IMG/VR virus record: IMGVR_UViG_3300029319_000093
Coordinates: 1-48,153 of that record
Length of the DNA: 48,153 nt
Strand: one strand, 5' to 3'
From: a virus
The position numbers and the translations under genes are program-made. Positions 2,112-34,215 of this stretch are shown here, piece after piece. Position 1 is the stretch's first letter; the number at the start of each line of letters is the position of its first letter. The notes beneath the pieces were generated by a model. That model ran no database searches. It was not told where the DNA came from and saw only the letters and a program-made list of their open reading frames with translations.

Positions 2112-2309
2112 ATGACTATCAAGTTATTATTAAACGGTGAGTTCGTTTCTCAAGATATAACATCTACAACAGTAGGTGAATTAAGAAATGAACTAAGCAT
2201 TCCAACAGATGCTAAAGTAATGGTTCAAGGCACAGTTAGAAATAACGACTATGAACTATCAGAAGGTGAAGTTGTTGCTTATGCAAGTAACAATAAAGTA
2301 GGTGGATAG
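2112..2309 (+). CDS. Ubiquitin-like (ThiS/MoaD-type beta-grasp) protein with Gly-Gly C-terminus
   Basis: A 65-residue protein. ATG 2112 is chosen over an upstream in-frame ATG at 2013 because AAAGGAGTTTAAA precedes it and the upstream extension lies inside the previous gene. The sequence has the ThiS/MoaD pattern: first strand MTIKLLLNGE, then TVGELRNEL helix, a middle VMVQG strand, NDYELSEGEVVAYA, and a terminal KVGG. The exposed C-terminal Gly-Gly is the group adenylated by ThiF/E1-type enzymes, and such an enzyme and a JAMM peptidase lie just downstream. By family knowledge it could be a sulphur carrier or a protein modifier; the E2-like and JAMM neighbours favour a modifier. Target unknown. 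Confidence 0.8.
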   Translation: MTIKLLLNGEFVSQDITSTTVGELRNELSIPTDAKVMVQGTVRNNDYELSEGEVVAYASNNKVGG

Positions 2310-2537: not shown

Positions 2538-4106
2538 ATGGCAGATAATACATTTACTTATTTTAACGGATTACAAGACGTAAAAGTAAATAATTTAACA
2601 GAACTTGATAATATGAATCAAGAAGAAGTAAATATGTTGGCAACTGGACCTCAAGATTTATTCTATGAAAAATTAGAATATATTAATAGATGCTTAGAAT
2701 CAGAAGGTATTGACAATATAGAAGTAACAAATAAATGGAACTGGAAACCAAAAACTTATGATAAAGTAAAAGGACTTATATATAACAGACTTTATTTACA
2801 TAAAAAGACAAATGGTTTAGATAGTTTATTACATAGAACTACAGATAGAATAAATTATCTAGGTTACATAAAAAGAATGACCAATGATATGGAATATGAA
2901 AGAAATAAACTTAAAAGAATGGGTGTTTCTAAAGATGTTGACATTAATGAATTTAAAGAAAAAGTCAAAGAATTTACAGAAACTATTATAAACCAATGCG
3001 AAACAGTTTATGAAGCAACAAATAAAAAAGTGCTAATTATTCCTTATTTTGACAAAATAACAAATAGAAATCCTCAACTGTATTATGATGTAAGTTTAGT
3101 AGATTTGCAGTTAAATGTGTTTGATGGTGATAAATCAATCCAAAAAATAGATTTAGATAGAATGCATTTAATACTTAATATTGACCTTAGAAGAAAATTA
3201 GGATTAAATAATAGTAATTTTAGTGCTAATGGTAAAATTGATTCAATATTTAATCTTTTGCATCCATATATATCCAGTAGAGGTTCGTATTCATATGGTA
3301 GTGTATGTTTTGATAAATACTTTGAAGATATAAATAAAGCACTTAGAAATAATGAACTTTTAAGTTTCGCATTTATTTTATTAGAATGGGCTCAGTATTA
3401 TAATCTAAAATATTCAAATCCTTACAATCAACCTCATATGGCTCATTTAGGTATGCCTAAAGAGTTTAGTAAAGAATATGTTGCGTGTCAATCTCAATCA
3501 TCAGTATTGTCATTTACAGAAAGAAGATTAGAAAGATATGTTGATAATCTAGAGTTAAATGATGAAGATAGAGCTGAGTTTATTGTTAAATCATATGATG
3601 ATATTGAATGTCAATTTAGAGATAGCTCTAGTCATTACAATAGAAATAAGAAAACAGTAAATGTTTTAAATTCAAATTGTGGTTTTAAACTACAAGCTAT
3701 GGCTTTAATGATAACAGAGTATTATACTGATATTATTAATAATTTAGAGCAAATATCAGAAGATGATATGCAAGCAATAAGTTCAGAAATAGCAAGATAT
3801 TTTAAATATGTAGATATTAAATATTGGCTTTTCTTAAATGATGATGGTTTTGATAGAGAAGGAATGTGTGATATGATTTTTAATAAAATGTATTATCATT
3901 GTTTTGACAAACAAACTGGACAAGCATACGAAATGACTGAAGAAATGTTATCTTCTTTTTATTATACTGATAATTTAATTAAATGGTTAGAAAATAAAGA
4001 GTTTATTGAAATAACTTATAAAAAATCAGATGATGTAAAGAAAGAAACAACTGAAGACATAGAGGAATTAACTAAAATGTGGGCTTATAGCTCAGAAGGG
4101 AGATAA
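2538..4106 (+). CDS. Large protein with E2-like (UBC-type) motif in Ubl cassette
   Basis: A 522-residue soluble protein with a strong site (AAAGGAGAATAAA). Residues ~164-225 hold beta-strand-like segments (KVLIIPYF, LYYDVSLVDLQLNVF). They are followed by H242-P-Y-I, then G-S-V-C257-F-D, a helix (residues ~262-290) and SNPYNQP. This order (strands, HP-x-[IV], about 10-15 residues, G-x-[IV]-C, helix, asparagine/proline loop) is the pattern of the E2 conjugating fold, with C257 as candidate thioester cysteine. The N-terminal ~160 and C-terminal ~220 residues are helical and unrecognised. It stands between the Ubl and the JAMM/E1 genes, two bases before the JAMM start. The E2 reading is inference; it could instead be an unrelated early protein. 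Confidence 0.6.
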   Translation: MADNTFTYFNGLQDVKVNNLTELDNMNQEEVNMLATGPQDLFYEKLEYINRCLESEGIDNIEVTNKWNWKPKTYDKVKGLIYNRLYLHKKTNGLDSLLHRTTDRINYLGYIKRMTNDMEYERNKLKRMGVSKDVDINEFKEKVKEFTETIINQCETVYEATNKKVLIIPYFDKITNRNPQLYYDVSLVDLQLNVFDGDKSIQKIDLDRMHLILNIDLRRKLGLNNSNFSANGKIDSIFNLLHPYISSRGSYSYGSVCFDKYFEDINKALRNNELLSFAFILLEWAQYYNLKYSNPYNQPHMAHLGMPKEFSKEYVACQSQSSVLSFTERRLERYVDNLELNDEDRAEFIVKSYDDIECQFRDSSSHYNRNKKTVNVLNSNCGFKLQAMALMITEYYTDIINNLEQISEDDMQAISSEIARYFKYVDIKYWLFLNDDGFDREGMCDMIFNKMYYHCFDKQTGQAYEMTEEMLSSFYYTDNLIKWLENKEFIEITYKKSDDVKKETTEDIEELTKMWAYSSEGR

Positions 4107-4107
4107 A

Positions 4108-5013
4108 ATGGAACTTAAGGATATGTTTTACATATTAGAAGATGACTGGTATAAATTACAAGCATGGGCTACAATAGCTTATGAAGAAGATAAAAATGAA
4201 ATATCAGGGTTAATGACAGCAGTACCACAAGAAGATGGTAGAATAAAAGTAAGTGATGTAGAAATCCTAAAACAAGAAAATAGTGGGACAAATACAGAGC
4301 TTAACGGTAATGCTGTTAGTGAATACATGATGAAATATGGTATGAAGTATAATAACCCTAATATGAAATTTGTATGGTGGCATTCACATCATACAATGGG
4401 AGCATTTTGGTCTGGAACAGATGAAAATGAGATTAAAGCTTGGAAGAATACAAGTTATTCTTTGGCATTAGTTATTAATCTTAAAGAAGAATATCTGTTT
4501 AGAGTCAGCTTCTGGCAAAATAGCGGTTTACCTATTGAGCAACACATAGATACTACTCTTACAATAGAAAGAGAAACACCAAAGATAAATATTACAAAAG
4601 CTATGAAAAAGCAATATGAAAAGCTTTGTGATAATAAAGTTGCTACATATGGTAAAGGGTGGCAACATTATCAACAGAATCTATGGAGTAAGAAAACTAC
4701 CAAACATAAACACGAAGATGATTATAATCTATTGTTAGAAGCTATAGAATCAATGCAAGATGATTATGTATCTGGTACTATAAAGTTTGGTGAGCTTAAG
4801 AAAAAAGTTGCTGATGTAAATAAAGAAGCTAAGAAAAGAAGTGTTCCATTTAGGATGAGAACATTCAAAGAAACAGCTGATGAGGTATTGAATCTGTTAA
4901 TGACAGCAATGCCAGATGAGCTTGTTGAATTTGATGATAATAATGTTAAAAACGAGCTTGAAGGAGCTTTAAATCCTTTCGAGCATAAATGGGGAGGTAT
5001 ATATGGCTATTAA
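4108..5013 (+). CDS. JAMM/JAB (MPN) metallopeptidase, putative deconjugase
   Basis: A 301-residue protein; ATG 4108 follows GAAGGGAGATAAA and begins one base after the previous stop codon. The JAMM signature is complete: Glu31 (NEISG), His92-Ser-His94, seven residues, Ser102-x-x-Asp105, i.e. E...HxH-x7-S-x2-D, the zinc ligands of Rpn11/AMSH-type and bacterial Cap3-type deubiquitinases. Residues 1-150 form the MPN domain; the rest (150-301) is a charged helical extension of unknown role, with Lys-rich segments. The overlap with the E1-like gene and the Ubl upstream suggest it cleaves Ubl precursors or conjugates. Phage tail proteins can also carry JAB domains, but this one is early, not in the tail module. 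Confidence 0.88.
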   Translation: MELKDMFYILEDDWYKLQAWATIAYEEDKNEISGLMTAVPQEDGRIKVSDVEILKQENSGTNTELNGNAVSEYMMKYGMKYNNPNMKFVWWHSHHTMGAFWSGTDENEIKAWKNTSYSLALVINLKEEYLFRVSFWQNSGLPIEQHIDTTLTIERETPKINITKAMKKQYEKLCDNKVATYGKGWQHYQQNLWSKKTTKHKHEDDYNLLLEAIESMQDDYVSGTIKFGELKKKVADVNKEAKKRSVPFRMRTFKETADEVLNLLMTAMPDELVEFDDNNVKNELEGALNPFEHKWGGIYGY

Positions 5014-5668
5014 TATGCGTTCAAGAGGTCTTGTAGACAACTTAAATGAATTTAATTATCATATACTAGGTTGCGGTGCTATAGGTAGTGCCGCAGCTAC
5101 CCAACTAGTTAGAATGGGTGCAGAAAACTTCTGTTTGTATGATAATGACAAAGTTGATACAGGAAATGTAGGAGTGTCACAATATACATTATATGATGTA
5201 GGTCATAAAAAAGTTGATATGTTAAAATCTAAAATATTAGATATTAATGATTCAGCTGAAATAATGTGTGACGATAGATTGTTTGACAATTATATCTATA
5301 TGAATAGTAATGATATAATTATTTTAGGTTTTGATAGTATGAAATCTAGATTACAAGCAGTCAAAGCAATAATGGGGTGGCGTGAAAGTATGCCATTAGC
5401 TCTTATAGATGGTCGAATGGGAGCTGAGCATTATCAACAATATGTTATACTAAAGCCTACATTGGCAAAGTATAAAGAAATATGGTACAGCGATGATGAA
5501 GGTAGCGAAGAACCTTGTAATATGAAGGCGACAAGTTATTGTAGTAATATGTCTGGTAGTTTTATCGCTAATGCTGTAAGAAAGTTGGTTACTGTTCAAC
5601 CATTTGAGGAGTTTTTATCATTCCATTTTCCAACAATGTGTATAGATAAAAATACCTTGGTTAGATGA
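5003..5668 (+). CDS. ThiF/E1-like Ubl-activating enzyme
   Basis: A 221-residue Rossmann-type protein starting inside the JAMM gene (11-base overlap, GGGGAGG upstream). It shows G23-C-G-A-I-G28 (nucleotide loop), Y-D47-N-D49 at the end of strand 2, G-F-D111-S, and IDGRMGAEHYQQY (135-147), the order seen in ThiF/MoeB/E1 and PRTRC-type ThiF proteins. The usual Arg of the N-x-x-R-Q loop is not evident (GNVGVSQY instead). Cys172 (EEPCNM) is a candidate thioester cysteine; there is no paired CxxC zinc site. It is a minimal adenylation domain, shorter than ThiF/MoeB (about 250). Expected reaction: ATP-dependent adenylation of the Ubl C-terminal glycine. Confidence 0.85.
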   Translation: MAINMRSRGLVDNLNEFNYHILGCGAIGSAAATQLVRMGAENFCLYDNDKVDTGNVGVSQYTLYDVGHKKVDMLKSKILDINDSAEIMCDDRLFDNYIYMNSNDIIILGFDSMKSRLQAVKAIMGWRESMPLALIDGRMGAEHYQQYVILKPTLAKYKEIWYSDDEGSEEPCNMKATSYCSNMSGSFIANAVRKLVTVQPFEEFLSFHFPTMCIDKNTLVR

Positions 5669-5782: not shown

Positions 5783-6457
5783 ATGGCATTAAAAAAAGTC
5801 AAAAGGAAAGCTGTCTCTCAGAATCCAAAAACAATGCTATTATACGGAGCACCAAAAGTAGGTAAAACTACAGCTCTAAGTCAGTTAGAAGATTGTTTAA
5901 TAATTGACACAGAAGGTGGTGCAAATATGATAGATGGATATGTAGAAACAGTAAGTAGTAGAGAAGACCTAATAAAGTTATTAAAAGAAGCTCAAGATGG
6001 ACATGAGTTTAAGTATGCTGCGATAGATACAATAGATAAAATAGCTATATGGGCAGAAAAAGCAGTATGTGAAGAAGAAGGAGTATCGGCTGTACAAGAC
6101 CTAGCGTTTGGTAAAGGTTTTGCTATGGTTAGAGAAAAAGTTCTTAATACAGTAAACATACTAAAAGAGATATTTCCTCATGTGATAATAATCGGACATA
6201 GGAAATGGGCTAGAGCTGTTGTAGACAGTAAAGCTATAGTTGAGCCAGAAAGCTTGGATTTAACAGGAAAGTTAAAGAACATGTTAATGGCAGATTGTGA
6301 TGCTATAGGTTATGTTTACAGAGATGATGAAAATAAGAAGTTAATGGTATCATTTCAAGCTAACGAAGCCTTAGAAGCAGGTAGTAGAAGTCCTCATTTG
6401 AGAGGCAAAGAGATAGAGTTAACATGGAATAATATATATAAAAAGGAGAGTAAATAA
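5783..6457 (+). CDS. Sak4-like RecA-fold ATPase (ssDNA annealing/recombination)
   Basis: A 224-residue P-loop protein of the phage AAA_24/Sak4 type. Walker A is GAPKVGKTT (22-30); LIIDTEGG (39-46) and YAAIDTIDK (78-86, Walker B) follow; IIIGHRKWAR is the motif before the C-terminal strands. Length fits Sak4 proteins (about 220-260). Family members promote single-strand annealing together with a phage SSB, and the next gene is a candidate SSB coupled through a TAATG overlap. A strong AGGAG site precedes ATG 5783. It probably acts in replication-linked recombination. Confidence 0.85.
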   Translation: MALKKVKRKAVSQNPKTMLLYGAPKVGKTTALSQLEDCLIIDTEGGANMIDGYVETVSSREDLIKLLKEAQDGHEFKYAAIDTIDKIAIWAEKAVCEEEGVSAVQDLAFGKGFAMVREKVLNTVNILKEIFPHVIIIGHRKWARAVVDSKAIVEPESLDLTGKLKNMLMADCDAIGYVYRDDENKKLMVSFQANEALEAGSRSPHLRGKEIELTWNNIYKKESK

Positions 6458-7056
6458 TGGCGATATTTAAACCAGAAACAACAAGTAGTGATAATTATTC
6501 AAACTTTACAGGAGTATGTGAGTTTGGAATATTAGAGTTTAAAGATAGGTCAGGAGAGTTTGATTGGGCTGATTTATTTATTGAAGTACTTGTAAAACAA
6601 AAAGGAAGTGATTATGATAGACCATTAGCTATTAAAGGTTCTTTCGAAAAAGTAGGTGGAAAGATTACAGGTGGCAATGGATTAAAAAGATTGTATCATT
6701 TCTTTGACCAAATAGGATGTGATGCTGGTATTAATGTAGACGGAGGCTGGGAAACAGCTGATGGACAAGAGATACCAGATATTGCAAAATATTTAAATGA
6801 TAACTTTGTTATTCCTAATGGAACAGATACACCTGATTTAAAATATTTAGGTTACTTTTATAAAGAACAACCTAAAGTTCCAGGTGGAAAAGCATATACT
6901 AGAGTATTATCTAAAGTATATAAAAATGTCATAGAAAACAAAGCAAAGTTAGAAGATGACGTTAAATGGATGAAATCTAAAGGATATTTAAAAGAGTTTG
7001 TAGAAGGTGAAGTTTCTCAACCAGCTATGGACCAGAGTGCTTTAGGTAATCTATAA
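6457..7056 (+). CDS. Probable ssDNA-binding protein
   Basis: A 199-residue protein starting in a TAATG overlap with the Sak4-like gene and ending in a TAATG overlap with the primase-helicase. The central part is beta-rich (FTGVCEFGILEFKDR, WADLFIEVLVKQKG, PLAIKGSFEKVGG) and consistent with an OB-like fold; the C-terminal tail is acidic and short (EGEVSQPAMDQSALGNL). Phage Sak4 proteins are often encoded beside such SSB-like (DUF669-type) proteins. The assignment rests on context and composition, not on a signature motif. Confidence 0.6.
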   Translation: MAIFKPETTSSDNYSNFTGVCEFGILEFKDRSGEFDWADLFIEVLVKQKGSDYDRPLAIKGSFEKVGGKITGGNGLKRLYHFFDQIGCDAGINVDGGWETADGQEIPDIAKYLNDNFVIPNGTDTPDLKYLGYFYKEQPKVPGGKAYTRVLSKVYKNVIENKAKLEDDVKWMKSKGYLKEFVEGEVSQPAMDQSALGNL

Positions 7057-8822
7057 TGTACGTCGAGATAGCTAAAGGAACACCTGGCAATAGAGGGTAT
7101 TTGATTAATAAAAATGACCTAAGTAAATTCATTAACGAAAATGCATTATACAGAAGTGTGTATTTATATGATGAAGAAGCACTTAAATATGTAGAAGATA
7201 ATGGTTCATTAAAGAATTACTTTGGTGTTAGATATATTGACAAAATACCTATTGATATTGATAAAGGTGGTTACACAGATGAGAAAACTTTAGATGTCTT
7301 GAGAGGTGTTGTTCTGGAGCTAGAAGAGGCCGACATTACGGAAGAAAGTTTCCAATGTTACTTTTCTGGCTCTGGATACCATATTGATTTAGCTGGTGGG
7401 TTATTTAACTTTAAATCTGGTGTTGATTTGCCATATATGGTAAAACAAACACTTAAAAGTTTGATACCTGATTTAGATTCATCCATATATATGCGAACTG
7501 GTATTTATAGAGTTCAGCATACTATTAACCAAAAAACAAACCTATATAAGATACCTTTATATAGAGATGAGGTTATGAATCTAAGTGCAGCTGATATACT
7601 CAAATTAGCCAAAGTTAATCGTAGTGATTATAAATATCTAGGGTTACAAGGCGATGGAGAGTTAGAGCATACTGTAAAAGAAGACGTTCCTGATGTTCAA
7701 GTGTTTAATAAAATATCGGAACCAACTAAAATAGTACCTTGTGTACAATCAATGTTAGCCCAAGGAGCAAAGAAAGGTAGTAGGCATATAACAGCATTAA
7801 GAATAGTTAGTCATTGTAAAAGACACGGCATTCCTAGTCATTATGCTAAAGTTATGATGCTTCATTGGAATAACAAAAGTATGCCAGAAAAAGAAATAAT
7901 GGAAATGGTAGAAAATGTATATAATAGAAACTATAAATATGGTTGTCAAGATTCTGTTATGTCAGAGCATTGTAAAACACAATGTATATTCTTTAATAAG
8001 AAAGACTATATGATAGATGTTAAATCATCAAATGATATGCAAAGTGAATTACACGAAAGACTAAATACTGATTTTAGTGGAAAAACTATAGACTTAGGTA
8101 GAGCTTTAGGAATAGACAAAGAATCAGTTATATATCCAGGCGAATTAGTTACTATATTTGGACCAACAGGTTCTAATAAAACTACATTTGCTCAAAATTT
8201 AGCACTTGGTGTAGACTTTGTAAATGATAGAATTGTTAAAGAATGGCAAATACCTACATTATTTTTAAGTTTAGAGCTGTCATCTTGGTATATGCACAGA
8301 AGACACCTACAAATAGTATCTGGCGTTAGTAAGCAAGAAGCTAACGATAATTACGCAGAACTATACAAAGAAAATGAAGATAAACTATCACATTTAATGG
8401 TTCAAACTATTTCTCCAACTCTTGATAAGATAGCGGAGAAAGTTAGAGAGTTAGAACCTTCCTTAGTTATTGTAGATTATATTGACCTTGTAGACACACC
8501 TTCTAGTTATAGAGGTGAATATGAAAAGATTAAATATATATCTCATGGACTATCTAATATGGCAGTAAATAACGATATGATAGTTATTCAAATATCGCAA
8601 GTAAGTAGAGAATACAGTCGGAATGAAGTGCTTGATTTGTATGCAGGTAAAGGGTCAGGCGCAATAGAAAATGCATCTAGAAAAGTGATTGGTCTTAATG
8701 GTCAATCAAATTCAGCGTCTAGAGCTGTTAGATTATTTAAAAATACCGATGGAGAACTATTTGATACTGAAGTCGAATGGACACCGTCATTTAGATTAAG
8801 GAGAACACAATGGAATGGTTAA
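7056..8822 (+). CDS. AEP primase fused to DnaB-type replicative helicase
   Basis: A 588-residue bifunctional protein. The N-terminal archaeo-eukaryotic-type primase shows IPIDIDKGG (Asp67/Asp69 metal ligands), SGSGYH (104-109, nucleotide-binding His) and a following RVQHTINQ segment. A Cys/His region (C254, C298, C306, C310) may bind zinc or an iron-sulphur cluster. The C-terminal RecA-like helicase has Walker A GPTGSNKTT (369-377), FLSLELSSWYM, Walker B VIVDYIDL (471-478) and VIQISQVSRE. It should unwind and prime phage DNA. As no DNA polymerase gene exists, it presumably recruits the host replicase. The stop overlaps the next start by 13 bases. Confidence 0.88.
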   Translation: MYVEIAKGTPGNRGYLINKNDLSKFINENALYRSVYLYDEEALKYVEDNGSLKNYFGVRYIDKIPIDIDKGGYTDEKTLDVLRGVVLELEEADITEESFQCYFSGSGYHIDLAGGLFNFKSGVDLPYMVKQTLKSLIPDLDSSIYMRTGIYRVQHTINQKTNLYKIPLYRDEVMNLSAADILKLAKVNRSDYKYLGLQGDGELEHTVKEDVPDVQVFNKISEPTKIVPCVQSMLAQGAKKGSRHITALRIVSHCKRHGIPSHYAKVMMLHWNNKSMPEKEIMEMVENVYNRNYKYGCQDSVMSEHCKTQCIFFNKKDYMIDVKSSNDMQSELHERLNTDFSGKTIDLGRALGIDKESVIYPGELVTIFGPTGSNKTTFAQNLALGVDFVNDRIVKEWQIPTLFLSLELSSWYMHRRHLQIVSGVSKQEANDNYAELYKENEDKLSHLMVQTISPTLDKIAEKVRELEPSLVIVDYIDLVDTPSSYRGEYEKIKYISHGLSNMAVNNDMIVIQISQVSREYSRNEVLDLYAGKGSGAIENASRKVIGLNGQSNSASRAVRLFKNTDGELFDTEVEWTPSFRLRRTQWNG

Positions 8823-11624: not shown

Positions 11625-11805
11625 ATGTAAAAAGTGTGGAGAGCTGATTGGACATAGCGCTCCTATATATAAAGCATCAAGAGGGTTTTTAGGTGAAGAT
11701 GGTACTTTTCATGAAGATGAATCAGTTATTATTCATATGGATTGTTATTACGATTTTACCTATGACCCTTTTGTAGCTATAGAAAAACAAATAAAAGAAG
11801 GTTAA
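11617..11805 (+). CDS. Zinc-binding mini-protein, last early gene
   Basis: A 62-residue protein beginning MVRCKKCGELIG, with C-x2-C at the N-terminus and H-M-D-C near residue 42, a plausible treble-clef or LIM-like zinc site. It overlaps the previous gene by eight bases. Its stop (11803-11805) overlaps the stop of the giant convergent minus-strand gene, so no terminator separates the two transcription units. Confidence 0.7.
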   Translation: MVRCKKCGELIGHSAPIYKASRGFLGEDGTFHEDESVIIHMDCYYDFTYDPFVAIEKQIKEG

Positions 11806-14800
11806 TCCTCTTTACTAGAAACAAAACCTGGAATAGGTACTTGTCTATCAGATTTCTTAATTTTAGAAGCTTCTATAGCAAGTCCTGTTAATGGAAATCC
11901 AGCAACTTTTTCTGGTAATCTCATAGGATTGTTTATAATACCAGATTCTGGATGGAATGTATCCCTTAAAATCCTACCAAAAGGAAGCATAGTCCACATA
12001 TAATAATCAGATAATTTAGTATAATCATCTTCAGCAAATTGTCTTATAGCAGATATTGGAAGTCTTGCTATAGGAGGAGTAATCATTTGCAATGGAGCTA
12101 TAGCTGTAGGATACATACCAAAGAAAGCTCTATCTCTTTCTTTTTCATCTCCAAAAATCCATTCAGCAGAATCTTGTAACCAGTTCCAAGGAGCTGGTAA
12201 TGTTTGTTCAAATAATGAATACATAAATACACCAGAAAGAGCCATAATAAGCATATCTAATGCTAATATCCTTTCTAACCTTTTAGTAGCTTCAGTTCCT
12301 GGAGCAAAATCATAAAGTTTAGCAGCTTTTCTTGCATCATTTCTAAATCTTACAGCATTGTAAGACCATAATTGAAATCTTGTCATAATTTTACCAAATG
12401 CAGAACGAGCAAATGCAGGACGATAAGGAGCATTGTATAAAAACTGGGTAGCTTTAACACCTTTTTTAGCTATTTCTATTAAATAAGGATGTTCAGGATT
12501 TGTAATTGCACCACCGAATCTTTCATAAGCTTTAATATAATGAGCCATAAATGAATCTCTTCTTAATGCAAACTCAGGTATAGTCATAAACTTAGCAGCT
12601 TTAGTCATAATAGCGTTGCTAACTCCATATTTTTTTGCAATAGCAGATATGTCTAAATCACTAACTCTAAATCCTTCTTTTTTAGATATATCAACTAATT
12701 CATTAACAAAAGCTTTAGCTTTACCTTGTCTAAATTCTCTTTGTAATCCAAACTCGTGTTGCAACATTTCAGGTTGTATACCAAACTTTCTAACAAATTT
12801 ATTTACATCTTCTTTTGTTTTAAATTGAGGATTAATTCCTTGTAAATAATCTATATTCTTAGCTTTTAATAAGGCATCTCCTCCAACAGATTGAAATGTA
12901 TGTATAGTACCACCAAAAACATTATTTATCATAGTTTTAGGATGTGTCATAAGAGTAGCTAACTGATATTTACCTTCAACATTAGCAAAAGACCTAACAT
13001 TAAAAGCATCAAGGCCACCTAAAACCATATCTTTTTGTTTAAAACCTAATTTTTCTCCCATTTTATTAAGCTTTTTAGCCATTAAATTATCAGCAAACCA
13101 AGCATAAGGAGTGCCTGATAGTTTTAAATTAGGGTCAGATAGTTCAGCTTGAGATATAGTAACAGGATTGCCCATAGCTTCACTTGCATATTTTTTCCAA
13201 AAAGTAACAATACCATTAACAACTCTAGAAGCTTCATCTTTATCTTTTTTAGGAGCTTTTGTAACCATCTCATTGTATAATCTGTCTCTCATATTATGAA
13301 GAGTATATCTAGACATTATATTTCCAAGCTGTCTAAAATAAGTATTTGTCACATTGTTTATATACATTTCAACAGCCATAGGTTCAATCATCCATCCAGG
13401 CATATGATTATCTCTTGCTTTCATATTGCCAAATTGCATATCTACAGTAGGAAGTTTAGAGCTTTCTGTTTTAGCAAGTTCTTTTTTTTCTATTTTAGAT
13501 AATGTTTCTTTAAATAAATCTGCATCCATTTTCTTCCAATTATGAAAATCAGCATAATCCCAATCACCAACTCTATGTTTGTATTTGTATATAAGTTTTT
13601 CCATTTCGTGAGCTTTTTGTTTTTTATTCATAGTAGTATTATTTTCAAGAGCTTTTTTTTCTTTTTCAAGAGATTCTTTTAATTCTTTATTACTATAAAA
13701 ATAATGAGGATAATAACCTTCTCTATAACCTGTTAAATTAATTATTAAATCTTCATACTGCTTAGATGTTCCAGCTTTATCAGGTTTCCAAAGTTTTTGT
13801 TCAGATTTAGACAAAGAATAATATTTTTTAACACCTATTTTTTGTTTTTTGCCTTTTATTACTCTAGTATATTCAGTAACAGGCAATAAATCTACAAGCA
13901 TAGAACGAGCCATATGTCTCATACCATCAATGCCTATATCTAAAAATTCTGAAACTTTTTTATCACCAGATTTTAATAATTGTCCTTTTGTATAAGCTAA
14001 ATTTAAATCATTAATAAAAGATTTATAATCTAATATAGGTTGAGTTTCATATCTACGGCCTTTTTCACGCTTACCTTTAGGAGGCTCAGGGTCATACCAA
14101 CCTGTTCTATATTTAGCTAAAGCTCCTGGTTTTCCAGATATAGTAGTATGATATTCTTTCATTAAACCTTCAAGTTTATTCATAGTCAAATCAACTAATT
14201 CGTAACCACTATAAACTTTTTTGCCATCACCAAAATCAACGCTGTATTTCTTTTTTCTTAATTTAAAGTAATCATTATTTTTTCTAGATTTTTCCCAGTT
14301 TTCTTTATATACTTTCTTTTTAGTAGAAGCGTATTGTTTTAATTCACTTTTTCTAACACCTAATCTCCAGATAGCACTACCATCTGGTACTTGGTCTAAA
14401 TATTTAAACGTTTCATTAAATCTTTCTATTTGTTGAGTAGCAACACCATGAGCTAAATCTTGTGTTCTTCCTATCCAGTTTTGTAATACTTCACCATAGT
14501 AAGTAGGTCTATACATTTTGTCTAATTTAGGAGTAACATCTTTAGTTTTAAAATAACCTTCAGCAGGTAAAAATTTTATATCATGAGCCATTTGCTCTAA
14601 GCTTACTTGTTTAGGAAACAATAACCACCATCTTTTTTTAACGCCTGCTTTTTTTAAAGCATCTTTATAATTTTCCATACGTTGAAACATATTGCCTTCA
14701 CGTATTTGTCTAAACCAATTATTAATAAGTTTAAAATCAGATATATTCATTTGATTAAGTTTTTTAGGAACAATATCTACAAATGGGTCTCCCATACCTG

Positions 14801-17800
14801 CATATATACCACTTAATAATTGGCTAATATCTTTTCCTTTTGCATCAGAATACATCTTTAAATGCTCAAAAAGTTCTTGTACAACCTTTTTATTTTCAGG
14901 AGAGATTTTTTTACCAGGTTGAGTAATTCCTTTATAAGAATCAAAATCAGATGTTAAGGTACCAAGCAATCTTATATTACGTTTGTTAACTAAAGGTTCT
15001 ACTTTTCTTTCAAATTTAGCTATATCTGCTTCACTTTCTTTATAAGGTTCAAAAGATTTTAGATAGTATTTATTTTTTGTTTTAAAAAATTTAATAATAT
15101 TTTCAGAACTTATTTCTTTAGAATCAAAAGCAGCTTTAGTAGTATTTGTTCTAGTACCTTCATGAAATATTTGATTTATTATATCTTGAGGTACATTATT
15201 TTTAAAAGCATTATTTAATGCTTTTTGCACTTCTGGACTACGTAAAGAACCTATAAATAAAGTGTCAAACATATCTCTTGCAGATTTAGACGGTAAAGAT
15301 TCTTTAAATTTCTTTATCCTAGCATCTATTTGAGCGTTGTCCATTATCTTTGTTCTTCTAGTAGGAAGTTTTAATTCAGGAGGAGGCTCTACACCAGCTT
15401 CTTTAAAAAATTCTATAGCCTCTCTTTTTTCTTGCATTCGTTTTTGAGATTCAATAGCAGACAAATCACCTTTTCTACTTCTCTGTGAATATTGAAAAGC
15501 ACTAAAACCTTTTAATAGTTCTACTTCTTTTCTTATTTTTTTCATAAGAGCTCTAGTTAAAGGTTTATCTGTTTTACGACTTGCCTGATATATTTCCATT
15601 ACTCTTTCTAAAGTAGAAATATTGTGAAAAGCATTTGACAAATAATCTTCAGATGTATCTACAAGTTTCCTTAAATAGCTTTCAACTTCAACTGCATCAT
15701 TAGGTTTTTTTATATTGTGTTCAATTTTAGATTTTCTTAATTGATTAATTAAAGCTAAACCATCTTTAGCTGTATTTTTTAAAGTAGATTCAACAAACAA
15801 ATCATTAGTTAATACAAAATCTATTTGGTCACTAAATCTTTCTTTAAAACCAGTTCTACCAAGAAGCTCTTTATAAAAATCTAAATTTTTAACATATTCA
15901 TTATGTTTATCGTGAAGCTTTTTTAAACTTTTATAATCAAGTCTATTAAATATAGACAAATTCATATTAACATCTTTTAAAGTATTGGCAAATTTCATAG
16001 TAAAAGTAGTCATTTCAGATTCTTCATACTTATTTATTCTTCTTGTCATTTCTTGTTTTTCATAAGCAGAATAAGCTCTATTAGCTTTAAAGTTCCTACT
16101 AAAATAAGCACTATTAAAATCTTTTATATCTTTATATCTTTGGTTTATTGTTTTAGTAAATTTTCTAAATTGTTCAGGCATTACAGGAGATTCTGACCAT
16201 TTTTTACTTGCAGAATTGTATGTTTCGTGTTTGCCTGTATAATAAGCTCTCATTAAAAGACTTTGCATTTCTGGTATACTAATTAATCCAGCTTCATTAG
16301 CTGGGTCAGCTGTAAAGTTTACAAGAGCCTTTGTTAAGTCTCTTTGCTCAGCACTAGGCTCTCTAGGCTCCATTGTTATTCTAAACTTCCTACCATCCTT
16401 ATACTCGCCTTCTTGATAAATATCAAATTTATTTTTGCTTGCACGAAGAGAACTCCATGCTCCTCTCATATTAGATACCATTGTAACAACAGGTCCCATT
16501 TTACCTCTATTAGATGCAGTTTCTAAACCTGTAAATGCTCTAACAACAGGAGAATATTTAGCTTCAGGATTAGTCATTACTTGTTTTAAAAACTGAGGAT
16601 TTATTTTACTGTTTTTAGGATTAACTACTATTTGGTCTCGGTATTGTTCTTTGGCATCTTTTATAGCTTTTGCATCTTCCGTATAAAACTCTTTTTTTTG
16701 TGCTTTATACATATCTTTCCAAGATTGTTTCATACCTTCGCCTACACCATCTCTGTTTCTACCACCAAAATAAATAAATGATTCATCACCATCAAGGTCA
16801 GCACCGCCTTGTGCTTCCATAGACCTACCGTGAGATAATACTCCATGGTCTTTAATACCAGTAAAACCTTTAAATTTAAGTACCTGCGCACCAGATGGAG
16901 AATCTTGTGGAACTCTTACATTGATAGCTTCAAATATTTCTTCAAACTGTTCTTTGTTTTGTCTGTACTTAGGGTTATTAGTTTCTTTTAATGACCATAA
17001 TTTACCTAACGTTGTTTTCGCAAGACCAGGTATATTAGTAAACATAGGTGTTTCTTTATACAAATCTCCTAAATAAAATATTTCATCATTTTTATTAAGC
17101 TCTGGAAACTTTTGTTGTAATGCTTTATCATAAGGTCTCATTCTTGCAACTATAGCATTTTTAACTTTAGGTTTTAAAACTCTTTCTCCTACAAATCTAT
17201 TTACAGCATCATTTACATAGTTTTTTGTATATTTGTCAAAAAACATAGGATATGCTTGGTCTAATTTAGACAAATGCTTTACAATATTATCAGCTGTAGA
17301 ATAAAAATCTACTAAATTTCTAGATGTTTCTTCTGCTGTTGTACCTGTTAATTCACCTTCTGTTATAGATTGTTCTAAATTTTGTTTATTAACCTTTAAT
17401 ATTTTTAGAAGCATTTCTTGTGCAAGTTTTTCACTACCAGGAGTTTTTAAAGTTGTTTCAATTTGTTTAACGCCTACATCATCAAAGTTTTCTATTATAT
17501 CTTCTATTAATTCTTTGGAAGGTTTTCTATTATATTCTCTAACTAAATTATTAATTTCTGTTTTACCATCAAAAGACCTTTGAGATAATTCATTAAATAT
17601 ATTATTTATAGTAGATTGTTCTGTCTTACCATACATATCTGGATGCAAATTTGTACCCATTTGCTTAACAAAAGTAATTCCTGTTACCTTTGTTTGACTT
17701 TCATTCATACCCATCATTTTGTGGTCATTTATAACTGATTGTGAGTATTTTAAATCTCCAGGTCTTATTTCTATAATTTCTTTTGCAGCACCTGTTAACT

Positions 17801-20800
17801 CTAATGGTTGACCTTTTTTATAAATATAATCACCAGGTTCTCTATTACCCGATTGTTTAATAGCACTACTCATTGCTAAAAAGTTTATACCTTCGCCATT
17901 ATTAGCTTTTTCCATAGCTTCAGATAGTTCTGGACCAGCTTTGTGAAACATAAACTTACCAAGTATAGTACCTTTTTTGTTTTTAGATATAATAAATGAT
18001 TTGTTTTGACCAGAATATGGAACACCTGCATCAAGGTTAATAGCATCAAGAACTTTGTCTGTTACTATAATAGCTCCATCAACGTGCTGAGGTAACTCTA
18101 TATTTAGTTTATTTAAAATGTTTTTTACCTTTTTAGGGTCTGCAATTAAAGAAGTTTTATAATTACCTTCTTTAGACAAATTAAGATTGCCTACACGCTT
18201 AGGATTATTAATAAACTCTTTGTCCCCAGATATACCATTAGTGAACCATATCTGAGCTCTTTTATTAGCCTCTACTGCATTTTGTATAAACTTACCTTTT
18301 TTACCTACCATCTCACTAATAGGCAGTCCATTCATAGCTTCTTCATGTGCTATAATAGACCTAGCAGCTTTATCATGCATAGCTTTATCCATAAGAAACC
18401 TGTTTTTAGCCTCTGTATATATAGAAGGTGGAAACTTTGGTAGCTTAACTTTACTAGCGTTAGGGTGGTATTCGACAAATACTATTCTATCTTTATCACC
18501 TACACCACCATACATATGATAGCCTTTTTTATCCATTTTTTTAATAACATTATTAAGGAAATACCTTCTTTCATTACGGATTTCATTAGGCGGTACAGCT
18601 TCTAAACTTCTTTGAAATTCAAACTTAGACAAATCATATTCTTTTCCCTCAATATTAATAGCGTCTAGTATAGCATATTTAAAAGGTTTTTTAGGTTCTA
18701 TAACTAATTTAGATTTGCCACCTAAAGAAAATGGGTTTTCTTTGTCAGTTAATTCAACTTTTGAAGCAGCTCTTTTTTTTGCATTAAATAAACCAGGAGG
18801 AGCTTCTTCTGCATTAATAAACCTAACAACTTCTCCTTGATTCTGAACTGCTACCCATTGTCTCATTTTGTTTTTAAGAGCTTGCGGTATTTCTATACCA
18901 GACTTTTCTTCTACAGCTTCTACCCATTCATAAGACCTATTTTTAGTAGAGCCTCTATCTAAATAATCAAGAGCTAATTCACCTGATACTTTTGTTGTTT
19001 CTACTATTTTTGCATTAACATCATCTATACTTTTTATAGTCTTTTTTAATTCAGGTCTTAAATACTGGTTCATAAGAAAAGACATTTTATTATCTATAAA
19101 ACTAGAACTAGACTCGCCTATATCTCTTATGTTGTTTGTATCTAATTCTAAAGTATCTTCTTTTTTTTCTATTTTTTTAGTTATTTCTTGTTTAAAGCCT
19201 ATTTTCTCGTATTTATCAAACATTGATTGCAAAGCCATCTTTTCAGTAGCATCAAGTGTTTTCTTTCCAAAAAAGGCTGTTCTAGCGCCTAATTCAGGTA
19301 CTACAGCAGTTGTAACAAATTTTTTCTTATCTTTATTATATTTCAACCAACCCTTAGTTTTATCATAAATATCTACTCTTTTATTAGCGTTTATAGCCAT
19401 TTGAACAGCATATTTAGACAAACCTCTAGTAGCAGTCATTTTAGGATTTATTGTATCAACAGCAACTACTTGCTTAGAAAACTCAACATTACGATAATCT
19501 CTTCTAATCCCATCTCTTGCATACTCATTTAAATTAGCTAAATTAACTTTTTCTCCAAGTTCATTTAAAGATTTTACAGCTTTTTCTATTGCTTGATTTG
19601 ATTTGACTAATTCTTGCCTAGGTAATGTAACAGGTAAATCAGCTTTACCACGTTCTCTTTGAGCTGGAAATACTGTTTCAACAGAGGCTATACCACTTTT
19701 TTTAGCACTTTTTAATGCTTCTGCTTGTGTACCTTTTTGACCAGTAGTTAAAACATAAAACTGTCTTTCATCTGGCTTGTATTTTATACCAGCTTTTTTT
19801 AAAGTTTTTTTAACTACTGTTTGAACTTGTCTTGTTTGTTCTTTAGCAGCTTCTTTAAATACTTCTGTTCTTATATCTTTTCCTTGAGCTTCTATTTCTT
19901 TTCTAGCTGGAGCCATACCTTTTCTTACAGCTTCATTATATACTTCGTTAATAGTAGCTTCTATTTGCTCTGCATTACCTCCAGCAAAACCAGGTCCTTC
20001 TGTAATTTTTAATACTTCTTTTTTAACCTCAGGTGCTAACGTATCCCATTTTTCATATAAAACCCTAGGGTCCATTAGTTTTGATTGCACTGGGTCATCA
20101 CTTTTTAATGCTTTTTCCCTAACCTTTTGAGCAATAGGCATAGCTCTTGCTACAGTCCAAGGTTTTTCACTACCACCAAAATATGCACCCATTAAATATT
20201 CATATACTTGCTCTGGTGTTGTAGCACCTCTTAAAGTAGATGGAACACCCATAAATATAGAACCAGCTAAACCTCTTGCAAACTTTTCTGCACGGGGGCT
20301 TCCTGCATTTATTTGATTACCTATAGTTCTAAATACACCACCTGCTACAGCTCCACTAAAAAAACTATCTATCATAGAATCTACACCACCTTGCCAAGAA
20401 GACAAAGCACTAGCAGTACCTAAATTAAATGCTCCTTCAGCGATGTGTTTTGCTTTGCCTGATAATAAAAATGCAGACGCTTCTTGCATTGCTTTACTTT
20501 TAGAAGAAGTACCAGCATTAATTAATGATGAAGATAATTTAGCAGCTCTTGGAGTTATGTATTTTTCAGCAACAAGTAAAGGCAAACCTTTCTTACCTGC
20601 TAAAAATTTAGATGCGTCTAACAATATATTACTTTTAGTCAAAGCTGTCTTAGCTAATGCACGACCACCCAAACTAAGTGGACCTGCTAATATACCAGGG
20701 GCAAATCCAATTAAATGACCTATGTTTTTAGCTATTGCTTCGTATGTATTGTCTGGGGCTTTTTTAGATACATTTAAAGTAGTGAAACCTTCAAAAAATC

Positions 20801-20996
20801 CAGAAGCTGCATGACCAACAGCATCTATTATAGAAAAATCCCCTTCATAAAAGGGGACATTATGATATTGTGCGTGTTGCCTAATTTTCTCTAAATCGCT
20901 TTCGTTAAAACGATGAGGACGATTATCGTAGGCTTTTATATAATTTTTGGTTTGTTGTTTGCTTAAAATAGGTGCAAATTGTTGAACCTCTGCCAT
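11802..20996 (-). CDS. Giant internal virion protein with RNA-polymerase-like DPBB motif
   Basis: A 3,064-residue protein, last gene of the late unit and next to two small internal virion proteins, i.e. the place of the T7 gp16-type ejection protein. The N-terminal ~300 residues have Gly/Ala-rich hydrophobic stretches; near residues 2905-2925 lies another hydrophobic segment (IMALSGVFMYSLF). In the middle, R1361-V-P...GAQVLKF...H...GGA-D1400-L-D1402-G-D1404 has the spacing of the RxP...NADFDGD block of bacterial beta' (35 residues from Arg to the first Asp there, 39 here). Further upstream, DG974AIIV...GK1014FMFHK could be the beta-type barrel with its catalytic Lys. Virion-packaged single-chain polymerases of this class are known from crAss-like phages (phi14:2 gp66, related to YonO). 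I infer a combined ejection protein and RNA polymerase; the gene itself is certain, the polymerase reading is not proven. Confidence 0.75.
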   Translation of the reverse strand: MAEVQQFAPILSKQQTKNYIKAYDNRPHRFNESDLEKIRQHAQYHNVPFYEGDFSIIDAVGHAASGFFEGFTTLNVSKKAPDNTYEAIAKNIGHLIGFAPGILAGPLSLGGRALAKTALTKSNILLDASKFLAGKKGLPLLVAEKYITPRAAKLSSSLINAGTSSKSKAMQEASAFLLSGKAKHIAEGAFNLGTASALSSWQGGVDSMIDSFFSGAVAGGVFRTIGNQINAGSPRAEKFARGLAGSIFMGVPSTLRGATTPEQVYEYLMGAYFGGSEKPWTVARAMPIAQKVREKALKSDDPVQSKLMDPRVLYEKWDTLAPEVKKEVLKITEGPGFAGGNAEQIEATINEVYNEAVRKGMAPARKEIEAQGKDIRTEVFKEAAKEQTRQVQTVVKKTLKKAGIKYKPDERQFYVLTTGQKGTQAEALKSAKKSGIASVETVFPAQRERGKADLPVTLPRQELVKSNQAIEKAVKSLNELGEKVNLANLNEYARDGIRRDYRNVEFSKQVVAVDTINPKMTATRGLSKYAVQMAINANKRVDIYDKTKGWLKYNKDKKKFVTTAVVPELGARTAFFGKKTLDATEKMALQSMFDKYEKIGFKQEITKKIEKKEDTLELDTNNIRDIGESSSSFIDNKMSFLMNQYLRPELKKTIKSIDDVNAKIVETTKVSGELALDYLDRGSTKNRSYEWVEAVEEKSGIEIPQALKNKMRQWVAVQNQGEVVRFINAEEAPPGLFNAKKRAASKVELTDKENPFSLGGKSKLVIEPKKPFKYAILDAINIEGKEYDLSKFEFQRSLEAVPPNEIRNERRYFLNNVIKKMDKKGYHMYGGVGDKDRIVFVEYHPNASKVKLPKFPPSIYTEAKNRFLMDKAMHDKAARSIIAHEEAMNGLPISEMVGKKGKFIQNAVEANKRAQIWFTNGISGDKEFINNPKRVGNLNLSKEGNYKTSLIADPKKVKNILNKLNIELPQHVDGAIIVTDKVLDAINLDAGVPYSGQNKSFIISKNKKGTILGKFMFHKAGPELSEAMEKANNGEGINFLAMSSAIKQSGNREPGDYIYKKGQPLELTGAAKEIIEIRPGDLKYSQSVINDHKMMGMNESQTKVTGITFVKQMGTNLHPDMYGKTEQSTINNIFNELSQRSFDGKTEINNLVREYNRKPSKELIEDIIENFDDVGVKQIETTLKTPGSEKLAQEMLLKILKVNKQNLEQSITEGELTGTTAEETSRNLVDFYSTADNIVKHLSKLDQAYPMFFDKYTKNYVNDAVNRFVGERVLKPKVKNAIVARMRPYDKALQQKFPELNKNDEIFYLGDLYKETPMFTNIPGLAKTTLGKLWSLKETNNPKYRQNKEQFEEIFEAINVRVPQDSPSGAQVLKFKGFTGIKDHGVLSHGRSMEAQGGADLDGDESFIYFGGRNRDGVGEGMKQSWKDMYKAQKKEFYTEDAKAIKDAKEQYRDQIVVNPKNSKINPQFLKQVMTNPEAKYSPVVRAFTGLETASNRGKMGPVVTMVSNMRGAWSSLRASKNKFDIYQEGEYKDGRKFRITMEPREPSAEQRDLTKALVNFTADPANEAGLISIPEMQSLLMRAYYTGKHETYNSASKKWSESPVMPEQFRKFTKTINQRYKDIKDFNSAYFSRNFKANRAYSAYEKQEMTRRINKYEESEMTTFTMKFANTLKDVNMNLSIFNRLDYKSLKKLHDKHNEYVKNLDFYKELLGRTGFKERFSDQIDFVLTNDLFVESTLKNTAKDGLALINQLRKSKIEHNIKKPNDAVEVESYLRKLVDTSEDYLSNAFHNISTLERVMEIYQASRKTDKPLTRALMKKIRKEVELLKGFSAFQYSQRSRKGDLSAIESQKRMQEKREAIEFFKEAGVEPPPELKLPTRRTKIMDNAQIDARIKKFKESLPSKSARDMFDTLFIGSLRSPEVQKALNNAFKNNVPQDIINQIFHEGTRTNTTKAAFDSKEISSENIIKFFKTKNKYYLKSFEPYKESEADIAKFERKVEPLVNKRNIRLLGTLTSDFDSYKGITQPGKKISPENKKVVQELFEHLKMYSDAKGKDISQLLSGIYAGMGDPFVDIVPKKLNQMNISDFKLINNWFRQIREGNMFQRMENYKDALKKAGVKKRWWLLFPKQVSLEQMAHDIKFLPAEGYFKTKDVTPKLDKMYRPTYYGEVLQNWIGRTQDLAHGVATQQIERFNETFKYLDQVPDGSAIWRLGVRKSELKQYASTKKKVYKENWEKSRKNNDYFKLRKKKYSVDFGDGKKVYSGYELVDLTMNKLEGLMKEYHTTISGKPGALAKYRTGWYDPEPPKGKREKGRRYETQPILDYKSFINDLNLAYTKGQLLKSGDKKVSEFLDIGIDGMRHMARSMLVDLLPVTEYTRVIKGKKQKIGVKKYYSLSKSEQKLWKPDKAGTSKQYEDLIINLTGYREGYYPHYFYSNKELKESLEKEKKALENNTTMNKKQKAHEMEKLIYKYKHRVGDWDYADFHNWKKMDADLFKETLSKIEKKELAKTESSKLPTVDMQFGNMKARDNHMPGWMIEPMAVEMYINNVTNTYFRQLGNIMSRYTLHNMRDRLYNEMVTKAPKKDKDEASRVVNGIVTFWKKYASEAMGNPVTISQAELSDPNLKLSGTPYAWFADNLMAKKLNKMGEKLGFKQKDMVLGGLDAFNVRSFANVEGKYQLATLMTHPKTMINNVFGGTIHTFQSVGGDALLKAKNIDYLQGINPQFKTKEDVNKFVRKFGIQPEMLQHEFGLQREFRQGKAKAFVNELVDISKKEGFRVSDLDISAIAKKYGVSNAIMTKAAKFMTIPEFALRRDSFMAHYIKAYERFGGAITNPEHPYLIEIAKKGVKATQFLYNAPYRPAFARSAFGKIMTRFQLWSYNAVRFRNDARKAAKLYDFAPGTEATKRLERILALDMLIMALSGVFMYSLFEQTLPAPWNWLQDSAEWIFGDEKERDRAFFGMYPTAIAPLQMITPPIARLPISAIRQFAEDDYTKLSDYYMWTMLPFGRILRDTFHPESGIINNPMRLPEKVAGFPLTGLAIEASKIKKSDRQVPIPGFVSSKED

Positions 20997-26345: not shown

Positions 26346-29300
26346 TTATTTAGTACTTTTTCTTCTAAATATTATACCAACAGAATCTATATTGTCTTTT
26401 ATATTTTCTAATTTAAGTTGCACCCATCTACCTTTTTTATTGGTCCCAGAAAGTTTATAATCAGAGCTTTCAGTGGCTGTTTTAGAATATGTTACGCTAT
26501 CTGAACTCAAAGAACCTGTGCTAGTAACTACAAGTAATCTATCACTACTTTCTAAATAATTACCCCCTAAATTTAAATTTTTAGACAAACCATTAATCTT
26601 TATTTTATTAAACACCTTCATAATAGAGTCTTCATTCATTGTTAATTTTTTACTAATCCAAGTATAATCTCTTTTAGTAGCTCCGCCTCTATTTTCATAT
26701 ATAGCATTATTAATAGGGATTAAGACCTCTCCATTTTCACCATTAAAAGGTTTTCCAATTTTACTATCTTCTGCTAACTCCCATAAATTCCATGTTTGTT
26801 TTAATATGCTGTAAGCCCATATATATTGTCTTAAAAGAGGAGTATTGTATGTTGCATCATTATCTAATATTTCAATGTTAAATAATACACAATCTATAAT
26901 AGCATCATAAAAAACGTAAGGCTTAGCTTTTGGATTGTTTTTAACAATAGAACTCCAACTTAAATCTCTTACATTATCTGTTCCGCCAAATGATACCTCT
27001 GTAGAACCTGCTTTTTGAATTCGTTCTGAAATTTTTATAGGAGATTGACCATTGTGAAAATATGCTCCAGTTTTATCTGCAAAAAACATTCCTTTTTCAG
27101 TTACAACTAAGCTATCCTTTCCAAAACAACCTATACCTTCATATATATCTTCTATAACTAAATTTTCTGGATTTACTCTATATATATTTAAATTGTCAAA
27201 TACATATAATCTTCCTAGAAAATTAGCCATTGCAGTAGGTTTTGATTTAAGAACTAAAAAATCATTAGCATAATCAAATACACTGTATTTACCTGGTTTA
27301 GACCTAAATACCATATTAGAAGCTTTTTCTATTTTACTGTGCGAACAATCACCTACAAATAAATAACCATCTATTTCGGTTGATATTCCGTATTTAATTT
27401 TTATAGTATCTAATACTTCAGAAATACCACTTCTAGTTTCATACGTAGCTTGCAAAGAACCTGAATCAGATAAAGTATAACAATATGATTCTGACTCTTT
27501 ACTCCACCCAGTATCTGTAGGTATTTCTTCTACTAGTTTATACAAATCAGTCGTAGAATCTTTTCTATAAAGACAAACTGCTGTTAATCTTCTACTTGGA
27601 TTTTTAACTTTAATTGTTATCACTAATTTTGCTCTTGAAAATGTATCATTCCAAAGCCAATGAGAATCACTTAATGGACCTTCTTGATAACCATCATATA
27701 TAAAAGATACTTTATAATAATATGCGTTATTTGCAACAAAATAATCTCCTGTTTGGTTTGGCAAAGATACAGACTCTATTGTTACAGAAGAATTCCCATA
27801 AGCTGTATACCTATCTCCATCAGCAGTACTATCATGTCTTAATACATTACCAGCTGCATCACCTTTATCCCAACTAGTAAATCCTGCTCTTATTTCTCCC
27901 ATATTAGAACTAGAACTATTATCTGATATTATTCCTTCCCATTGATTAGTATATGCTGTTCCAGAATCAGTATCCGTAGCAGTAGTAGTAATATCTATTT
28001 CATCATCATCAACTTTATCAATATTATAAGTACCATCTAATTCATTACCACCTCCAGCATCATACGTTATAGTATCTCCAGTAAATAAAAGATGAGCAGA
28101 AGGATTATCTATATGTAATTTTTGTTCAGAAGAACTTGTACTTGAGACACTGTTAACATTATATACTCTTGTTTTTCTCATATCTAAACCGCCAAATGTA
28201 GTTTTTAATACAGGAGATGTTAATTGCATTGCCAAAGGGTTAGAAGTTGATGTTTCATTAGACCCTGTTAATAACTTCCAATTACCTGTTTCTGTGCCAG
28301 AACTACTACCTATAGTAGCTAAAGTATCAGGACCCGTAACTGTTACAGTATAAATATTATTATAACTTGTAGTATCTGTTATTTCAATTTTATCATTTGT
28401 TGTTAAATTATGATGAGTTCCTGTAGTAACAATTCCTGTACTTGAAATTTCTACAGTTCCATTATCTTTGTATATTGTATCACCTATTAAAGGGTCTGCA
28501 AGAATAGCATCACCTAATCCATGTGGTAATGTTTTTGTTTTATATAACCTAACTGGGGCAGTAGCTGCGTTTGCATGAGACCATATCCAGAATTGGTCAT
28601 TATCAGCAGGAGTATGAGCAAAAGGATAATGTACTTTAACTATTATATCATCTCCTGTGCTATTTCCTAATTTAAAAGAACCTACTATATATCTTGTTTG
28701 AATCATTCCTGTTGTTGCATCTTTTATAGATATACACAAGCCTGATAAAGAATTTGTTAAATCTCTATATTGAGAATTTGCAAAAAACAAACTTAAATCA
28801 TCAGTACTATCATAAGTAATCTCATCTGTATCTATATGTATACAAGGTCTTTTATCATTATCTCCTTCTAATGTTGAAGCTGTAGCTGTATCATCATAAT
28901 CTTTTATAATACCTGATATAAGGACATCCCAAGAAGTACCATTATTTACACTATTTGTATTTCCATTACCAACTGTTTGTTCTTTTTGAACCTGCAATCC
29001 TTGACTAGGATAAAGAAAATCCATATCACATATATATATTTTTGACCTTTGCTCATCATCATTTTTAATTGGACAAGTTATAAATAATTTGCTTGCAAAA
29101 GCATTGCTAGAGCTTGAGTTATCTACATCATAATGAAGCTTTGTACCTTGTTTTGTATGGTAAACAGGGTTAGGATAGCAAGGCATATCTACACTTACTC
29201 CATTACCTATAATTAAATCATTAAAATCATCGTCATCCATGCTAAAAGGTCTAATCATAACACCTGCTCTAAAACTTAATTTTTCTATTTTCCATAATAA

Positions 29301-34145: not shown

Positions 34146-34215
34146 TTATCTCCCATTCTATTTTTTCAGAAGATGTCCAATAATCTTCTGGTATTATTAT
34201 ATTATATATTTCCAT
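34138..34215 (-). CDS. Possible 25-residue peptide between MPE and nozzle genes
   Basis: ATG 34215 follows GGGGGAAGTTGCTTG on the minus strand and opens a 25-codon frame (MEIYNIIIPEDYWTSSEKIE...). It overlaps the phosphoesterase stop and the nozzle-gene start, filling the only gap there. It may serve translational coupling. The evidence is limited to its fit. Confidence 0.4.
   Translation of the reverse strand: MEIYNIIIPEDYWTSSEKIEWEINA

Follow-up and report, generated by a model that had tools for sequence, protein, structure and literature searches.

Conjugation of ubiquitin-like (Ubl) proteins in bacteria is best known as an anti-phage defence. Bacterial operons combining a Ubl with a JAB peptidase, an E1 and an E2 were described by Iyer, Burroughs and Aravind in 2006, and their type 6d is the closest to the module considered here (PMC1779556). 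The present analysis found that phages themselves carry an apparently complete Ubl-E1-E2-JAB set within the replication block, and searches with the E1 family gave more than 400 contig matches. The window, the whole stretch of DNA that was analysed, is an IMG/VR record of 48,153 bases from a marine tailed phage, with terminase, portal and major head protein genes on the minus strand. The product of the gene at 2538-4106 is probably the E2-like enzyme of a phage-encoded Ubl-conjugation system, a reading given a probability of about 0.68. A first-pass annotation had proposed an E2-like domain here; in its favour are an invariant cysteine, C257, behind an [HFY]PY motif, a confidently modelled core with UEV and Cap2 domains as best matches and the Ubl/JAB/E1 context, and against it stand TM-scores below 0.5 and the lack of a match to an E2 profile. 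The features of the locus are as follows.

2112-2309, plus strand: Ubl, 65 aa, ending ...NNKVGG; conserved K-x-GG end; weak ThiS match (E 0.051)
2538-4106, plus strand: putative E2-like protein, 522 aa, ATG start; open reading frame with homologues along its full length
2724-2759, plus strand: conserved N-terminal motif VTNKWNWKPKTY (residues 63-74); W69 in 50/50 aligned sequences
2928-3473, plus strand: modelled E2-like core, residues 131-312; pLDDT 88.8, pTM 0.84; top PDB match the TSG101 UEV domain
3261-3269, plus strand: H242-P243-Y244, counterpart of the E2 HPN motif; position 242 is H in 31, F in 19 and Y in 2; P in 50/52 and Y in 49/52
3306-3308, plus strand: C257, predicted catalytic Cys; invariant in 52/52
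3387-3425, plus strand: W284 ... N294-P295-Y296, helix and NP motif beyond the Cys; W284 and P295 each in 52/52
3516-3629, plus strand: remnant of a C-x(23-28)-C-x4-C-x(5-6)-C motif, positions 327, 353, 358 and 364; C358 alone left in the window
4108-5013, plus strand: JAB/JAMM metallopeptidase with E31, H92-S-H94, S102 and D105; Prok-JAB E 7e-5; Rpn11-like
5003-5668, plus strand: E1-like/ThiF adenylyltransferase with GCGAIGS, D47, D111 and C172; ThiF E 1.3e-17
5783-6457, plus strand: Sak4-like AAA_24 ATPase, outside the cascade; PHROG 124, E 4e-32; conserved downstream
7056-8822, plus strand: primase/DnaB-like helicase, given as context; conserved downstream neighbour

The reading frame at 2538-4106 codes for 522 residues, as the first-pass annotation had it, and is considered a real gene because homologues at 94, 80, 61, ~36 and ~20% identity extend along the full protein. 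In searches of viral contigs the identity of the homologues fell from 94% to about 17%, and a viral structure library contained an identical deposited protein (A0A516LAI7). The order on the plus strand is Ubl, E2 candidate, JAB, E1, Sak4-like ATPase, a 199-residue protein, primase/DnaB-type helicase and HNH endonuclease. In the window the E2 and JAB genes are separated by 1 base and the JAB and E1 genes share 11 bases, which suggests coupled translation. The protein had also been called early; this is in keeping with its place in a plus-strand replication block opposite the minus-strand virion genes, but expression timing can only be presumed from that layout. Elsewhere in the window are two giant minus-strand reading frames, at 11802-20996 (3064 aa) and 26346-34145 (2599 aa), neither of which had a match in Pfam at E 0.001, and a metallo-phosphoesterase-like gene (PHROG 221, E 8e-28) lies amid the virion genes at 34202-34984.

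The three partners of the E2 candidate are well conserved. The K-x-GG of the Ubl is found at the same place in 51/52 distinct relatives, and 13 of the 51 GG-bearing sequences have a tail of 1-11 residues beyond GG. The JAMM residues are intact in 87/87 distinct JAB relatives. In the E1 the nucleotide motif and C172 are invariant, with C172 also present in crAss-like and Flavobacterium phages, and C172 is probably the catalytic cysteine. The best scores of the E1 are against ThiF/ThiS adenylyltransferase models, and it also matches many PADLOC E1-E2 models of defence systems and Cap2/BubCD chains.

A wider search of viral contigs with the E1 hit 404 contig stretches, and the 80 best of these were retrieved. 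Synteny was counted over 77 loci with distinct E1 sequences, scored where the flanking sequence was long enough. The order Ubl-E2-JAB-E1 was present in all 44 of the E1 loci with enough upstream sequence, while Sak4 lay downstream of the module in 63/69 and DnaB in 39/39 of the loci with room. The E1 gene is split into two overlapping frames at two loci (L014, 4003-4724; L060, 757-1303), through a frameshift or an assembly error. When bacterial and archaeal genomes were scanned once with the E1 family, no copy came up; since the patterns used were strict, this absence from cellular genomes is provisional. A literature search in an open library found no paper on a phage-borne Ubl-E2-JAB-E1 set, which is no proof that none exists.

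Residue conservation was assessed in 52 non-redundant E2 candidates (<90% identity). The placing of H242-P243 and C257 in the first-pass annotation, 15 residues apart, was correct, and the variable cysteine that would have told against its proposal did not appear, C257 being kept in all 52. Its expectation of an invariant H242 did not hold, as only 31/52 sequences have His there (19 Phe, 2 Tyr). The spacing of 15, to which it had drawn attention as longer than the standard, is right for the window, but within the family the loop is anywhere from 14 to 40 residues long and the spacing is therefore not diagnostic. An invariant cysteine that closes a freely varying loop of 14-40 residues matches what is expected of an active-site Cys. 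Judged as a UBC/E2 domain, the family has its invariant Cys beyond an HPN-like motif of the form [HFY]-[PSA]-[YF]; a true HPN motif is missing, with His in 31/52 and the Asn position taken by Tyr in 49/52 and Phe in 3/52. The His is absent from other prokaryotic E2-like groups too (PMC1779556).

A full-length model built with 40 homologues reached pLDDT 85.6 and pTM 0.68. In the core model a helix is followed by strands at 35-42, 50-57, 61-66, 69-75, 79-86 and 98-104 (core numbering), the Cys segment and two helices. Compared with the UBC fold, this is a helix, a 5-6 strand antiparallel meander and helices, with PDB TM-scores of at most 0.46 and E of at least 0.14. The first Foldseek match of the core in the PDB was the TSG101 UEV domain (probability 0.69, TM 0.38/0.46), bacterial Cap2 ranked sixth, and among the matches listed all eight with a query TM of at least 0.30 were UEV domains. 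All PDB matches remained below 0.5, the usual fold threshold (TM at most 0.46, E at least 0.14); as no structural score was significant alone, the model suggests, rather than establishes, an E2-type fold. The viral structure library yielded five more phage proteins, remote in sequence (16-21% identity), that share this core at TM 0.70-0.84. No E2 profile was matched by the E2 candidate in Pfam, PHROG, NCBIfam or PADLOC; Pfam UQ_con and Prok-E2 gave no matches among 40 members, the NCBIfam model PRTRC_B was not matched by the protein of the window, and a PDB sequence-profile search returned weak matches to helical proteins and no E2.

The extent of the domain has to be revised in part. A core of residues 164-300 had been proposed, and although its end near 300 stands, the modelled start lies at about residue 131/136. 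The N-terminal flank is consequently of ~130 residues; it was predicted as helical and 160 residues long, whereas in the model it is alpha+beta and contains a conserved motif. Conservation in this part of the family centres on VTxKWNWKPGxYDK. In most relatives the helical C-terminal part contains a four-cysteine motif that is probably metal-binding, judging from its spacing: Cys is found at 327 in 41/52, 353 in 41/52, 358 in 52/52 and 364 in 44/52 E2 candidates. All four are present in 21/40, a larger number have three, and the motif is present in E2 homologues within loci L006-L024. In the nine-member clade of the window (support 99/98) the other three cysteines have been replaced and C358 is kept. 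No E3 fold or family of RING or HECT type was recognised in the flanks by Pfam and family scans; C358, a conceivable second transfer Cys, is invariant in 52/52 but part of a degenerate four-Cys motif. With conserved flanks and a four-Cys motif but no E3 family, a substrate-choosing or E3-like role of the flanks, as the first-pass annotation had suggested, is possible, though unproved. A more specific form of this idea, in which the C-terminal part would descend from a four-Cys E3-like domain (Zn or Fe-S) whose metal was lost in the clade of the window, with Ubl passing from C257 to C358 and on to the substrate as in an E2-E3 fusion, is very unlikely.

Cultured phages were reached through the E1. 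A tblastn search with it matched 77 named phage records, including Bacteroides crAss-like phages and phages of Flavobacterium psychrophilum; the E2 candidate and JAB had no matches among named phages in the same kind of search, so that E1 alone provided the bridge. The order Ubl - E2 candidate - JAB - E1 is present in crAss001, DAC15, FpV4 and relatives; in crAss001 the module is gp79-gp76 (locus L080, 4214-8624), with similar sets in L077-L088, and the annotations of these genes read hypothetical, metalloprotease and thiamine biosynthesis protein. Profiles of the window family recovered 12/12 of the cultured-phage loci with E1 and JAB, and those of E2 and Ubl did not recover their counterparts at the 12 loci. 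The 12 cultured-phage E2 candidates share an HSH that is followed, after about 17-22 residues, by a single invariant Cys, and an ES-xx-G-x-PY segment. Profile-profile alignment placed LHPYIS..YGSVCFDK of the window family on LHSHVR..WQGGCLGN of the cultured phages, the His/Cys segment scoring 20.5, modestly above the maximum of 19.8 among 100 controls made by column shuffling or reversal, and hhalign of the two E2 candidates gave a weak E of 0.05-0.11. Equating the two E2 candidates is thus tentative, with synteny carrying most of the weight and the sequence signal modest. In the cultured phages an invariant Ser-Gly of the Ubl precedes a long extension, which suggests that processing would be needed.

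The Steigviridae crAss-like phages (crAss001, DAC15, cr111_1) and Flavobacterium phages FpV4 and Fpv1-3 thus share with the window the gene order, a place beside replication genes and homologous E1 and JAB. They differ in that their genomes are larger (88-103 kb), their E2 candidate is strongly diverged, with a length of about 370-444 aa and the pattern HSH...C[LT]G, and their Ubl has SG and a long extension in place of the Gly-Gly of the window's family. HNH endonuclease genes adjoin the module in two crAss-like phages (L084, 2687-3890; L085, 2302-2850); the one in L084 lies between two small reading frames where others have a single Ubl gene, and may interrupt that gene. The E1 of crAss001 (L080, 7473-8621, 383 aa) has ~130 extra N-terminal residues ahead of the ThiF domain, an extension missing from the E1 of the window and of cr111_1.

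From the observed gene order and residue conservation, together with the predicted E2-type core, we infer the following scheme. The JAB peptidase would trim a tailed Ubl to Gly-Gly; the ThiF-type E1 would adenylate this Gly-Gly and probably load the Ubl on C172, from where it would be handed on to C257 of the E2 candidate. The flanks of the latter would position a substrate, to which the Ubl would be attached, and JAB could take it off again. As the module is situated in a replication/recombination block, the likeliest targets belong to DNA metabolism, whether of the phage or of its host, or are host proteins that the phage encounters early in infection.

The main rival to an E2-like enzyme is a sulfur-carrier pathway, in which the Ubl would be a ThiS/MoaD-like carrier processed by JAB, the E1 would make its thiocarboxylate and the 522-aa protein would be a sulfur acceptor or thiolation enzyme with C257 as the acceptor Cys. 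It draws on the ThiF/ThiS models being the best matches of the E1, on ThiS being the only Pfam hint for the Ubl and on known clusters of JAB, ThiS/MoaD and E1 in sulfur metabolism (PMC1779556). We consider it unlikely, given that the block contains no recognised gene for a thiolation enzyme or a rhodanese, that the model of the additional component is E2/UEV-like and that the E1 matches many defence-system E1-E2 models as well.

Two other explanations concern the protein itself. It could serve as a non-catalytic scaffold of E2/UEV-like kind to which Ubl or E1 binds, with C257 structural and Ubl transferred directly from E1 or by way of C358. UEV domains are indeed the best structural matches, the HPN motif is degenerate (H/F/Y-P-Y) and C358 is invariant to the same degree as C257; UEVs, however, lose their Cys, while C257 is invariant right behind its variable loop, and such a scaffold is decidedly unlikely. 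Alternatively the protein may have an unrelated fold that only resembles E2, with another role in the operon, e.g. substrate or nucleic-acid binding. The low TM-scores and lack of sequence-profile support would allow for this, but no fold other than UEV/E2 turns up repeatedly among the top PDB matches, and beside Ubl, JAB and E1 genes an E2 is precisely what would be expected; an unrelated fold appears highly improbable.

Current annotation labels the genes of this module hypothetical, thiamine biosynthesis or metalloprotease. The same layout in cultured Bacteroides (crAss001, DAC15) and Flavobacterium (FpV4) phages makes phage use of a ubiquitin-like system directly testable.

Operon type 6d, which we take to be the PRTRC system, was compared first. 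Curated PRTRC models scored far under their cut-offs with the module of the window (PRTRC_A 14.4 of 101.8 bits, PRTRC_ThiF 28 of 144.75 bits). A plasmid search for a PRTRC comparison set yielded unrelated ThiF genes. Type 6d resembles the phage module in having separate genes for a Ubl with terminal Gly, a JAB, an E1-like protein and an E2-like protein with an invariant Cys, and in its mobile-element context (PMC1779556). Its E2s, however, have no upstream His but an absolutely conserved one after the Cys (PMC1779556), whereas the phage family has H/F/Y upstream and no invariant His beyond C257 (H303 in 28/39), and type 6d, unlike the phage module, includes a fifth, helical gene as well as a JAB-N domain (PMC1779556). 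The CBASS Cap2/Cap3, Bil and Bub systems have the E1/E2/JAB logic in common with the phage module, which differs in being phage-carried and in having as its E2 candidate a separate protein of 522 aa, not joined to E1; its surroundings contained no recognisable CD-NTase gene or other gene for defence. The likeness to eukaryotic UBC/UEV domains (TSG101, Vps23) lies in the succession of a helix, an antiparallel meander and further helices, the differences in a TM below 0.5, the 5-6 strands of the model, the long variable loop before the Cys and the missing HPN Asn; UEV domains are catalytically dead E2 relatives without the Cys, whereas C257 is kept in the phage family. By the criteria tested the phage module falls into no named family, and it probably resembles in its working, and derives from, the prokaryotic Ubl-conjugation operons.
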